Origin: an uncultured Wohlfahrtiimonas sp.
GTDB taxonomy: Bacteria; Pseudomonadota; Gammaproteobacteria; Cardiobacteriales; Wohlfahrtiimonadaceae
DNA: 35,220 nucleotides
Direction of reading: 5' to 3'
Assembly (NCBI GenBank): GCA_947630895.1
Contig: CANRJJ010000015.1
Span: 1-35,220 of the forward strand
The notes below the pieces were generated by a model, which saw nothing but the letters and a program-made list of their open reading frames with translations, was not told where the DNA came from and made no database searches. The stretch's first letter is position 1. Each line of letters opens with the position of its first letter. The translations under genes and the position numbers were made by a program. This document shows, one piece after another, positions 7,447 to 11,203 of this stretch.

Positions 7447-7830
7447 ATGTTTGCTTACTACACAGCTTTTAAACATTCACATTTATTGTTTGTGGTCATC
7501 ACTTTAGTACTGTTTAACTTTCGTTTCTTCTGGAAGCAATTCGCACCACAAAAACCATTACATAAAGTTTTCCGAATTATTCCACACATCAATGACACAT
7601 TGTTATTATTAACAGGTGCTTTAATGGCATATACCGTTAAATTTATTCCATTTGTGAATGCCAATTGGCTTGGTATAAAACTAATCTTACTCGTTTTATA
7701 TATTGGCTTTGGCTTTATGGCAATCAAAGCTCAACCTCGTTCGAAACAAGCCATCATTGGTTATATTTTTGCGATGGTATCTGTTCTCGGCATTATCCAT
7801 TTAGCAATGGCAAAACCTTTACTTTTCTAA
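7447..7830 (+). CDS. SirB2-family inner-membrane protein
   Basis: A 127-residue, very hydrophobic protein with four predicted transmembrane helices (about residues 7-27, 44-63, 72-92 and 101-121). The layout and the motifs HSHLLFVVITLVLFNFRFFW and IIPHINDTLLLLTG match the SirB2 family, which was named after a Salmonella invasion-gene locus but has no established biochemical role. AGGAG sits 5-6 nt before the ATG. It is 9 nt upstream of msrB, with the two genes probably co-transcribed. The family call is good; the function is unknown. Confidence 0.8.
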   Translation: MFAYYTAFKHSHLLFVVITLVLFNFRFFWKQFAPQKPLHKVFRIIPHINDTLLLLTGALMAYTVKFIPFVNANWLGIKLILLVLYIGFGFMAIKAQPRSKQAIIGYIFAMVSVLGIIHLAMAKPLLF

Positions 7831-7839
7831 GGATATATT

Positions 7840-8271
7840 ATGAAAGTTGATAAAGACAAACTCAAAGAAACACTAACAGATCTTCAATATCATGTGACAC
7901 AAGAGAATGGCACAGAAAGACCTTTCACAAGTGAATACAATGATCTGTATGAAGATGGTATCTATGTTGACATCGTAAGTGGTGAAGCACTCTACTCTTC
8001 TCGTGATAAATATGATGCGGGTTGTGGCTGGCCATCATTTAGCAGATCATTGGTTGATTTGGTTAATGTAGAAGATTATAGCCTCAGTAGAGTTCGCACA
8101 GAAATTCGTAGCCCAGAAGGCGATTCTCACCTCGGCCATGTATTTAATGATGGACCTGTAGAATTGGGCGGTATTCGTCATTGTGTGAATGGTGCTGCGC
8201 TTAAATTCATTCCTGTTTCAGAGATGGAAGCGCTTGGCTACGGTCAATGGCTATTCTTATTTGAAGAATAA
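7840..8271 (+). CDS. msrB: Peptide-methionine (R)-S-oxide reductase, zinc-free type
   Basis: A 143-residue MsrB that reduces methionine-R-sulfoxide in proteins. The catalytic Cys is C115 in RHCVNGAAL, and the likely resolving Cys is C62 in DAGCGWPSF. The substrate-site stretch [13 protein letters not shown] is intact. The two CxxC zinc pairs of E. coli MsrB are replaced by [10 protein letters not shown] and [10 protein letters not shown], so this is the metal-free subclass. It has only two cysteines in all. AGGA precedes the ATG. There is no MsrA here and no signal peptide, so it should act in the cytoplasm. Confidence 0.95.
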
Positions 8272-8278
8272 AATTACC

Positions 8279-8312
8279 AAAAATAAAAAGCTAGTGGAAC
8301 AATCCACTAGCT
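8279..8312 (-). terminator. Strong minus-strand terminator
   Basis: A perfect 10-bp stem AGCTAGTGGA (8289-8298) / TCCACTAGCT (8303-8312) with a 4-nt loop. On the minus strand it runs straight into TTTTTATTTTT (8289-8279). On the plus strand it is followed by A, so it does not terminate msrB in the usual way. It ends either the M48 operon, about 240 nt past its stop codon, or a separate small RNA. Confidence 0.85.
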
Positions 8313-8411
8313 AAAAAGCAAAACTCATAATAGTAGTAATGGCTGTTTCTTAATTAGGCCTTAAGAAGCAGTGATTCCAATACTAGTCTCAACTCTCCGT
8401 ACTGTCTAAGC
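8281..8411 (-). ncRNA. Candidate small RNA between msrB and the M48 gene
   Basis: This non-coding stretch between convergent genes carries two stem-loops on the minus strand. The first is CTGCTTCTTAA / TTAAGAAACAG (8372-8342, one internal mismatch). The second is a strong 10-bp terminator ending at 8289 with a T-rich tail. An FNR-like palindrome lies just upstream (8450-8463) where no protein gene needs it. The 5' end near 8411 is a guess, since several weak -10 boxes compete in AT-rich sequence. Alternatively the stretch is only the 3' untranslated end of the M48 transcript. I recognise no known RNA family. Confidence 0.4.
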
Positions 8412-8449
8412 AATTTAATTAATCAATCAATTTAATATTTATATTAAAT

Positions 8450-8463
8450 TTGATATAGATCAC
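8450..8463. promoter_or_regulatory. FNR-like binding site
   Basis: TTGAT-ATAG-ATCAC matches the FNR consensus TTGAT-N4-ATCAA at nine of ten positions. It also resembles a CRP half-site pair but fits FNR better. It lies between two convergent genes, more than 85 nt past the M48 stop and about 180 nt past the msrB stop. An 18-bp AT palindrome (8431-8448) is next to it. The best explanation is control of a minus-strand non-coding transcript. Confidence 0.45.
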
Positions 8464-8554
8464 TATGTTAAGAATTTTCAAAAATAACCATTATTAAATT
8501 TTTCAATATTAATATATTTGATTATATAAATTGATAATGTAATGAATTACATTA

Positions 8555-10447
8555 TTAATATAGAAAACTAAATGCCCTTTGCAAAATAAATAATAAACAC
8601 TGCCCATCCGATCCTAATCTTGGCATTTGGCTAAGCTCAGCAAACACTTCTTCTAGTTTCGTTTGATCTTGTGCGGACAAGCTACTCAATAATGGCAAAG
8701 CATTATCAAATACCTCATGCCAAGATAAATTCTCCTGATACGGAATAGTTATTTGCAAAAATTCTGCAATATCTGTGTAGCATAGCTTTGCCGATGCTGG
8801 ATTTTGATTAAAAACAATCGCCATTGTGACACTGAGTAATTCAGACAATGGTTTTTGTAATGTTTCAATGGAATCTTTGTGCGCAGAAAATCGTATTAAA
8901 TGATTATGTGCAGATTTAGCAATATGCACTCTCAAGATTAAAATCATGCAATATTCGGCAATTGAAACCTCATCATCCATTTCAATCAAATCTTGGCAGA
9001 TATTTTCTATGTCTTGTATTTGAAACTTGGCTAAATTATCAAAATTGGGCAGTTCATTATTCAATGACTGCAGTCGTTGCAAATCAGTCATATTTTCTAG
9101 TCGATGTGATTCTCGAGCCACTGACTCAAACAGATGATGGGATAATTTAGCGCGCAGATAATCCATCTGTGCTTTTTTAGTCACCACATCATTAAATGAC
9201 AGAAAAGCAGCATAGCATTTTGCCAATTTAGCAAAAATGATTTGGCTATTTTTATCTAGTCCTAATTCAATGGAGATATTGTGGCTAATATTATTCAAGC
9301 GACTTAAGGAATAGCCTTCCAAAGCAGTGACCAAGACAAGATCATCCATCTCATTTCTATCCACCCATCTTTTGGCCAATTGCTCTATACCCTCTTGATT
9401 CGGCCAACGATACGCAGGTTGAATTTTACGAATGCGCTTTAAAATAGGTGGATGCGTATCAAAAATACTTGTTTTTTCATGGTAGTTTTGCAAATAAAAA
9501 TGAGCAAATTCCTGATGATCCGCATCCATAGCCGTCGAACTCTCGTCATCTTCATCTTTCAAGAAAGCAATCTTCTCTAAAACTTTAACAATTTGATGCC
9601 CACGCACAAATCTTACTGATTCCGAATCTGCCAAATATTCACGCTGCCTTGAGATTATAGCTTTAACAATTCTGGCAGAAATAGCACCAATCGCCCCAAC
9701 ACACATGATTAACAGACTCAACAAGATGACAGGTAAAGTTACAAAAATGATAATTATATCTATCAGATAATCGCCATCGTTAGCTTTTCTTGAAACTGTT
9801 CCTATCGTTCGCATTGAATAACCTAGACAAAAACGATTCACCAAATCAAAGTCCCCAAATAAATGGCGCGTAAACGCATGAAACATTGTATAGCCATACA
9901 AATAAACACTTTGTAATCCATACAACCAGCCGATGAGCTTAAAGTTTAAAATAGGATCTCCATGCAAAATATGGCTAATTTCATGCCCTACTAAAGCTTG
10001 CAATTCAGAGCGGGTTAAACGAGTAATCGAACCTTCTGTCACAGCGATTGCTGTATCTTTACGATTGGTCGATATTGCAAAAGCATTGATGTCATATGAT
10101 GGCAATATGTATAATTTGGGCGTTTGAATACCTGCTGCAATACTCATTTCAACCACAACCTTCATGTAACGAGCGACTATTGGATTTTGATTGAACTGAT
10201 TCACTTCAATCGCACCGAGTTTTTTCATCACATAACCGATACCTTCGCGCATTTCAGCAAATTTGCTCCACACCATAATCAGCATGAATACATTACAAAC
10301 TGCGATCCAAATCCAAGCATTTGAATTTGTAACGGCCGACAATACAAAACCCATCGCAATGGATGTTAATAAATAAACACCTAAAAAAATGAGCAAGAAA
10401 GTAAAACTATTGATTAATAACGATCGTCTATTTTCCCAATTTTGCAT
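8555..10447 (-). CDS. HtpX-like M48 membrane zinc protease with C-terminal extension
   Basis: A 630-residue protein. Two N-terminal membrane helices (about 12-38 and 42-61) precede an M48 peptidase domain. The zinc motif is VGHEISHILHGD (H155, E156, H159), and the third ligand is probably E270 in RQREYLADSESVRF. Another hydrophobic pair spans about 228-262. HtpX of E. coli has about 293 residues, so roughly 250 C-terminal residues (about 380-630) are extra; they look helical, contain no membrane segment and match nothing I know. The family removes damaged or misassembled membrane proteins. It is the last gene of the bamD-waaA cluster, 51 nt after its neighbour, with AGGA before the ATG. Not htpX itself by length. 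Confidence 0.85.
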   Translation of the reverse strand: MQNWENRRSLLINSFTFLLIFLGVYLLTSIAMGFVLSAVTNSNAWIWIAVCNVFMLIMVWSKFAEMREGIGYVMKKLGAIEVNQFNQNPIVARYMKVVVEMSIAAGIQTPKLYILPSYDINAFAISTNRKDTAIAVTEGSITRLTRSELQALVGHEISHILHGDPILNFKLIGWLYGLQSVYLYGYTMFHAFTRHLFGDFDLVNRFCLGYSMRTIGTVSRKANDGDYLIDIIIIFVTLPVILLSLLIMCVGAIGAISARIVKAIISRQREYLADSESVRFVRGHQIVKVLEKIAFLKDEDDESSTAMDADHQEFAHFYLQNYHEKTSIFDTHPPILKRIRKIQPAYRWPNQEGIEQLAKRWVDRNEMDDLVLVTALEGYSLSRLNNISHNISIELGLDKNSQIIFAKLAKCYAAFLSFNDVVTKKAQMDYLRAKLSHHLFESVARESHRLENMTDLQRLQSLNNELPNFDNLAKFQIQDIENICQDLIEMDDEVSIAEYCMILILRVHIAKSAHNHLIRFSAHKDSIETLQKPLSELLSVTMAIVFNQNPASAKLCYTDIAEFLQITIPYQENLSWHEVFDNALPLLSSLSAQDQTKLEEVFAELSQMPRLGSDGQCLLFILQRAFSFLY

Positions 10448-10498
10448 GAGAGTATTTTCCTAATATTTTTATAATTTATAGCTTATATATGAATTTAT

Positions 10499-11203
10499 TT
10501 ATTGATCTAATTGGATATATTTCGTAATTTCATCGACCAGCGCTTGCTGATCTTGCTTGGTAAAAAATGTCACTAACTTTCCTTTTGGATTGACTAAGAA
10601 ATAAGGTCGGCTACCAAAATTAAATAACGTCAAACCATTTTTATTTTTAAACTTAAATCGTTCAGCAAATGATAAATGGGCAGTTTTCTCAGGGTCTATA
10701 TAAAACAAATGAGCACAAGCATTAAAATGCTGATAATTTCCCAAAGAACCGATTAAAACTATCTGCACATCATTTTCTATTGATAGATCAATCGCTTCAA
10801 TAATCTTCTCGACCGCCTCTAATTCATCTTCAAATTCTGCCAAATCAATAAAAAATGAATACTTGCCCAGTAAATCCGCTGATGACAATGTCTCTTTATC
10901 ACTTTGCCACTCGATATATGGGATAGAATCATTCAGCGTTAATACACTATTACCTTCAAACACCGAGCCATCTCGCACAATTAAAAGATAGTCATGTAAA
11001 CACTGAGTTTGCCATGCTAAAGCCTCTTTAGACAATAACTTATACTTTTTATAAGGTGTTTGAACCAACCAGCTTTCAGGATCTGCGATGCGCACAAACA
11101 ATGGAATATTGAATACAGCTTTCTCTAAAGCAATGCGCTCATAATACAATTTACACAAAGGCGGAATATAAAACTGTTTCAACGCTTGCATCAACTCTTT
11201 CAA
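10499..11203 (-). CDS. Thioredoxin-fold-like protein lacking a CxxC site (unrecognised)
   Basis: A 234-residue protein I cannot assign to a named family. Residues about 105-230 read like a TlpA/AhpC-type fold: strand GKYSFFID, a helix with AEFEDELEAVEKI where a redoxin would have the WCxxC helix, strand VQIVLIGS, then SRPYFLVNPKGKLVTF, which looks like the cis-proline strand pair (P200). No CxxC is present; the three Cys (17, 68, 163) are scattered. There is no signal peptide or membrane helix. The start is TTG at 11203: AAAGGAGGT lies 6-7 nt upstream and the waaA stop ends 1 nt before it, while the first ATG (11191) is too far from the ribosome site. It lies between waaA and the M48 protease. 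The fold is inference. Confidence 0.7.
   Translation of the reverse strand: MKELMQALKQFYIPPLCKLYYERIALEKAVFNIPLFVRIADPESWLVQTPYKKYKLLSKEALAWQTQCLHDYLLIVRDGSVFEGNSVLTLNDSIPYIEWQSDKETLSSADLLGKYSFFIDLAEFEDELEAVEKIIEAIDLSIENDVQIVLIGSLGNYQHFNACAHLFYIDPEKTAHLSFAERFKFKNKNGLTLFNFGSRPYFLVNPKGKLVTFFTKQDQQALVDEITKYIQLDQ

Follow-up and report, generated by a model that had tools for sequence, protein, structure and literature searches.

The msrB-M48 intergenic region

The locus described here is a 283-bp gap enclosed by two convergent genes, msrB, whose stop lies at 8271 on the plus strand, and a gene for an M48 peptidase of 630 aa, which ends at 8555 on the minus strand. Both are part of a window of 35,220 nucleotides (the whole stretch of DNA that was analysed) from the genome of an uncultured Wohlfahrtiimonas sp., hereafter G000. 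Next to the M48 gene is encoded a 234-aa protein (10499-11203), which is without Pfam match and adjoins a kdo transferase gene. An earlier sequence-only reading of this DNA had placed an FNR-like site, an AT palindrome, a stem-loop and a minus-strand terminator between the two converging genes, and all of these are found at the coordinates that it gave (Table 1). A further AT-rich palindrome, ATAATGTAAT-GA-ATTACATTAT, is observed at the M48 stop codon (8534-8555) and is not kept in relatives.

A terminator scan of positions 7800-9000 returned a single terminator, located on the minus strand at 8312-8289 and followed by a T tail; the same scan detected no plus-strand intrinsic terminator in the gap between msrB and the M48 gene.

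Table 1. Features of the msrB-M48 gap and its flanking genes, in window coordinates.
Feature	Position	Strand	Evidence or remark
msrB (SelR domain)	7840..8271	+	Pfam PF01641; converging gene
Intrinsic terminator hairpin AGCTAGTGGATTGTTCCACTAGCT and T tail	8279..8312	-	Terminator found by scan in 4/4 loci
Predicted small RNA, about 91 nt	8283..8374	-	Promoter spacing and terminator conserved in G000, G029 and G028
A/U-rich linker, candidate Hfq-binding or pairing stretch	8313..8342	-	Without conserved pairs; ATTAnnAnTATTA partly conserved
5' stem-loop CTGCTTCTTAAGGCCTAATTAAGAAACAG, one C-A mismatch	8343..8371 (loop 8354-8360)	-	Covariation; GCCTAA in loop invariant
-10 element TAGTAT	8380..8385	-	TANNAT conserved; 17-nt spacer
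-35 element TAGACA	8403..8408	-	Invariant in four genomes; chosen together with the -10 element by the promoter scan in 3/4 loci
Conserved 18-nt block TTGATTAATTAAATTGCT	8409..8426	-	Almost invariant in four genomes; just upstream of -35
AT palindrome TTTAATAT-TT-ATATTAAA	8431..8448		Not conserved in G029 or G028; no function assigned
FNR-like site TTGATATAGATCAC	8450..8463		9/10 to TTGATNNNNATCAA; centre about 82 bp upstream of predicted start
M48 peptidase gene	8555..10447	-	Pfam PF01435; upstream of the RNA, same strand

Occurrence in related genomes

The genome of the window was compared with 32 genomes of its order. A DNA search for the element found it in the nearest relative, G031, and in part in G029, and inspection of the sequence downstream of msrB added G028, so that the element is present in four of the six genomes of the genus examined. 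A covariance model built from the four copies gives one strong match in each of these genomes, always at the same locus (E from 7e-25 to 9e-22), and every copy is flanked by msrB on one side and by the 3' end of the M48 gene on the other. With the same model, no convincing match is obtained in the remaining 28 genomes of the order, and a sample of 369 genomes of the class yields no additional member. Other genera of the order give weak matches that seem to be fortuitous; L107, for example, reads like coding sequence. The loop 17-mer has 10 matches in viral contigs, none of which fits the remainder of the model, and a contig scan with an MsrB query retrieved unrelated organisms only. In Rfam, no match is obtained at the gathering score, and the loose threshold returns only chance-level noise; a sub-threshold match to CyaR lies on the wrong strand.

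Conservation is concentrated in the element, the core block being 80-96% identical among the copies as compared to 52-74% in the flanking gap. An msrB orthologue is found in 18/18 genomes of the family; a close orthologue of the M48 gene is restricted to the four carriers of the element. The other two members of the genus, G027 and G030, lack both the element and an M48 match, and in them msrB directly adjoins the orthologue of the 10499-11203 gene (46% identity), an arrangement which marks the empty site. In this respect the element and the M48 gene (8272-10498) act like a single segment that was inserted or lost.

Structure of the predicted RNA

Read on the minus strand, the element corresponds to a predicted RNA whose start is defined to within 2 nt on either side and whose 3' end falls inside the T tract. 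Its predicted length is similar in G028 and G029 (about 91-93 nt) and larger in G031 (about 104 nt). In the alignment of the four copies both hairpins keep their pairing, which answers the covariation check in related genomes that the earlier reading had proposed: 7/20 pairs are changed on both sides, and 98.8% of the cells are paired. In the 5' stem-loop, 3/11 pairs are changed on both sides with 97.7% of cells paired; the GCCTAA loop and the flanking TTCTTAA and AATT are retained in the four genomes, and the lower stem is rewritten. In the terminator stem, 4/9 pairs are changed on both sides, and its sequence varies while its pairing stays.

In this alignment, which comprises four sequences of one genus and was also used for deriving the structure, the covariation score is 0.467 as compared to 0.260 in shuffles, and this score is attained by 0/500 shuffles; when the partners are shifted by 1-3 columns, pairing falls to 54% or less. 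Covariation beyond chance strongly supports the terminator and the hairpin of the sequence-only reading, and the support that it gives to both hairpins can be described as good but not overwhelming. The folding z-scores of the element range from -2.9 to -4.6. With regard to the strand, reading the minus strand as the RNA gives four G-U wobbles and reading the plus strand gives one, and a T tract follows the terminator stem on the minus strand only. A small-protein reading was dropped, as no minus-strand open reading frame of at least 20 aa lies inside the predicted transcript.

Promoter and upstream block

A promoter footprint was computed from the three copies whose alignment is free of gaps. 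In these, all six positions of the -35 element are invariant, none of the 17 spacer positions is, and four of the six -10 positions are, as TANNAT (Fisher P 0.0017 for the -10 element against the spacer). The three versions of the -10 element, namely TAGTAT, TACTAT and TATCAT, share the invariant T, A, A and T, and their match to consensus is modest (4 to 5 of 6). The distance from the -10 element to the hairpin is 12 nt in three genomes. In G031, 14 bp (AATGTCACTAATTT) are duplicated in tandem in the stretch from the -35 element to the 5' hairpin (L006 1339-1390), which has doubled the -10-like sequence; as a result, the -10 element of this genome may be TAATTT, with a spacer of 17 nt, or TAATAT, with one of 31 nt. 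The position of the conserved pair at 8408-8403 and 8385-8380 implies a start at about 8374 and a length of about 91 nt, whereas the earlier reading had expected a start between 8400 and 8450 and a length of about 130 nt. Its more general proposal, a small RNA on the minus strand, is borne out by conservation, covariation and the promoter footprint.

Upstream of the -35 element, TTGATTAATTAWATTRYT is almost invariant, whereas the 42 preceding bases are not (P 4e-6). Taken together with TAGACA, the block forms a 24-mer, TTGATTAATTAWATTRYTTAGACA (8403-8426), which is nearly invariant in the four genomes and unique in each of them at up to 3 mismatches. The 18-nt block may be an UP element or the binding site of an activator or other regulator. 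It resembles the ArcA box, with 8/10 positions matching WGTTAATTAW.

A probable trans-acting small RNA

On these grounds, we consider it probable that the gap encodes a trans-acting minus-strand sRNA of about 91 nt, with its own sigma-70-type promoter and an intrinsic terminator. The predicted molecule is a new, lineage-restricted small RNA and probably Hfq-dependent. A 5' stem-loop, an A/U-rich linker and a terminator with a U tail form a layout common to Hfq-dependent sRNAs. Hfq is encoded in all six genomes of the genus, and the features of such RNAs found here also include a computational promoter footprint, a U-tail terminator and a covarying structure.

Transcription would begin from the -35 TAGACA and -10 TAGTAT elements and end at the intrinsic terminator. 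The 5' end of the RNA would lead almost at once into the stem-loop, where the invariant GCCUAA of the loop would probably serve as the seed for pairing, and the stem-loop would be followed by the A/U-rich stretch and then by the terminator with its U tail. The 18-nt block adjoining the -35 element is conserved and is probably where the main control is exerted; in G000 and its nearest relative, FNR may contribute further control from the site at -82. From the sequence we infer that the RNA is transcribed, that it binds Hfq and that it represses or stabilises mRNAs via the loop. A search for complements of the loop near ATG codons gives at least 55-81 matches per genome, mostly inside reading frames, and no conserved base-pairing target appears among the matches listed.

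The FNR-like site and possible oxygen control

The sequence-only reading had suggested that the RNA is oxygen-responsive. According to this explanation, FNR would activate an FnrS-like sRNA from the site at 8450-8463, a proposal which concerns only the control of the RNA, is compatible with the existence of an independent sRNA and seems to us unlikely. The regulator itself is encoded: each genome has one FNR orthologue with the C-x2-C-x5-C motif, the central Cys and the ExxSR recognition helix intact, and in G000 no other full-length protein exceeds the HTH_Crp_2 cut-off. For the latter reason, the FNR-like sequence, which is equally CRP-like (8/10 match), is unlikely to be a CRP site.

The site is present in two of the four genomes that carry the RNA, G000 and its nearest relative G031, where it has 2 mismatches and lies at the same spacing. 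However, it is missing upstream of the RNA in G029 and G028 (best match with 3 or more mismatches), although RNA and promoter are conserved there. Taken on its own, the site is weak: chance would place an equally good match in about 4% of 283-bp gaps of the same composition (P about 0.04) and in 2% of 110-bp upstream stretches; the window holds 11 FNR-like sites versus 5.4 expected, and the genome has 350 palindromic FNR-like positions with at most 1 mismatch. As for geometry, the centre of the site lies at about -82 from the conserved promoter and not at the class II position of -41.5, and the start that the latter would require (about 8415) has no acceptable -10 element. Class I activation by FNR is allowed from a centre near -82. 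The AT palindrome, whose conservation the earlier reading had set as a test of its proposal, is not conserved in the more distant relatives G029 and G028. FNR control therefore retains some plausibility because a genuine FNR-type protein is encoded and the class I distance is allowed, but it is doubtful because G031 alone shares the site, which lies at about -82 rather than -41.5 and is accompanied by an unconserved palindrome.

Like the E. coli FnrS, the element would be a small intergenic RNA with an intrinsic terminator and an upstream FNR-like sequence in a genome that encodes Hfq and FNR. However, the FNR site of FnrS is of class II and located at -41.5 (PMC3032703), whereas the site described here is unconserved, at about -82; sequence and loop also differ, and the element is without Rfam match. 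The gonococcal FnrS, of about 110 nt, consists of a 5' stem-loop, an unstructured region and a 3' terminator (PMC3032703), the same layout as that predicted here for the element. In contrast, the gonococcal locus lies inside a coding region, on the strand opposite to it, and has a class II FNR site, and a 260-fold anaerobic induction has been demonstrated for the Neisseria FnrS/AniS, whereas the present RNA is a prediction.

Relation to the M48 and msrB transcripts

The strongest rival takes the RNA to be the 3' untranslated region of the M48 mRNA, made up of a protective hairpin and the terminator, with or without an sRNA released by RNase E cleavage at the A/U-rich conserved block. It owes this position to the joint presence and absence of the RNA and the M48 gene: the four genomes with the one also have the other, and G027 and G030 have neither. 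In addition, no other terminator lies between the M48 stop and the element, and sRNAs derived from 3' regions, such as NarS, are known (PMC8139620). As with NarS-type sRNAs, the element is downstream of a protein gene, on the same strand, and shares its terminator. Unlike them, it is preceded by conserved promoter-like hexamers of its own, which lie about 150-170 nt beyond the stop codon, and a -35/-10 footprint with an unconserved 17-nt spacer fits a promoter rather than a cleavage site; moreover, the gap from the M48 gene to the block is poorly conserved. We thus regard a 3' UTR as an unlikely account of the element.

That the RNA is a cis-antisense regulator of the msrB mRNA is very unlikely: its 3' end lies about 12 bases from the msrB stop, and msrB, lacking a plus-strand terminator of its own in the gap, would have a 3' end that runs into the RNA, so that the transcripts could pair or collide, but any convergent transcript would suffice for this, the conserved loop and compensatory changes would be unneeded, and conservation peaks in the loop and promoter. 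As a side effect, the RNA could nevertheless act in cis as an antisense to msrB.

Significance

Reading raw sequence can detect a real small RNA and yet misjudge its start and its regulator. The predicted trans-acting sRNA represents a small-RNA family not described before, whose promoter, seed and terminator can be put to the test and which appears to be confined to one genus among the genomes examined. A more specific account, which we hold to be decidedly unlikely, is that of a young genus-restricted sRNA, gained or lost with the M48 gene, controlled by a factor at the TTGATTAATTAWATT block and newly wired to FNR in two species. If this were true, the sRNA would have been caught during the gain or loss of oxygen control.
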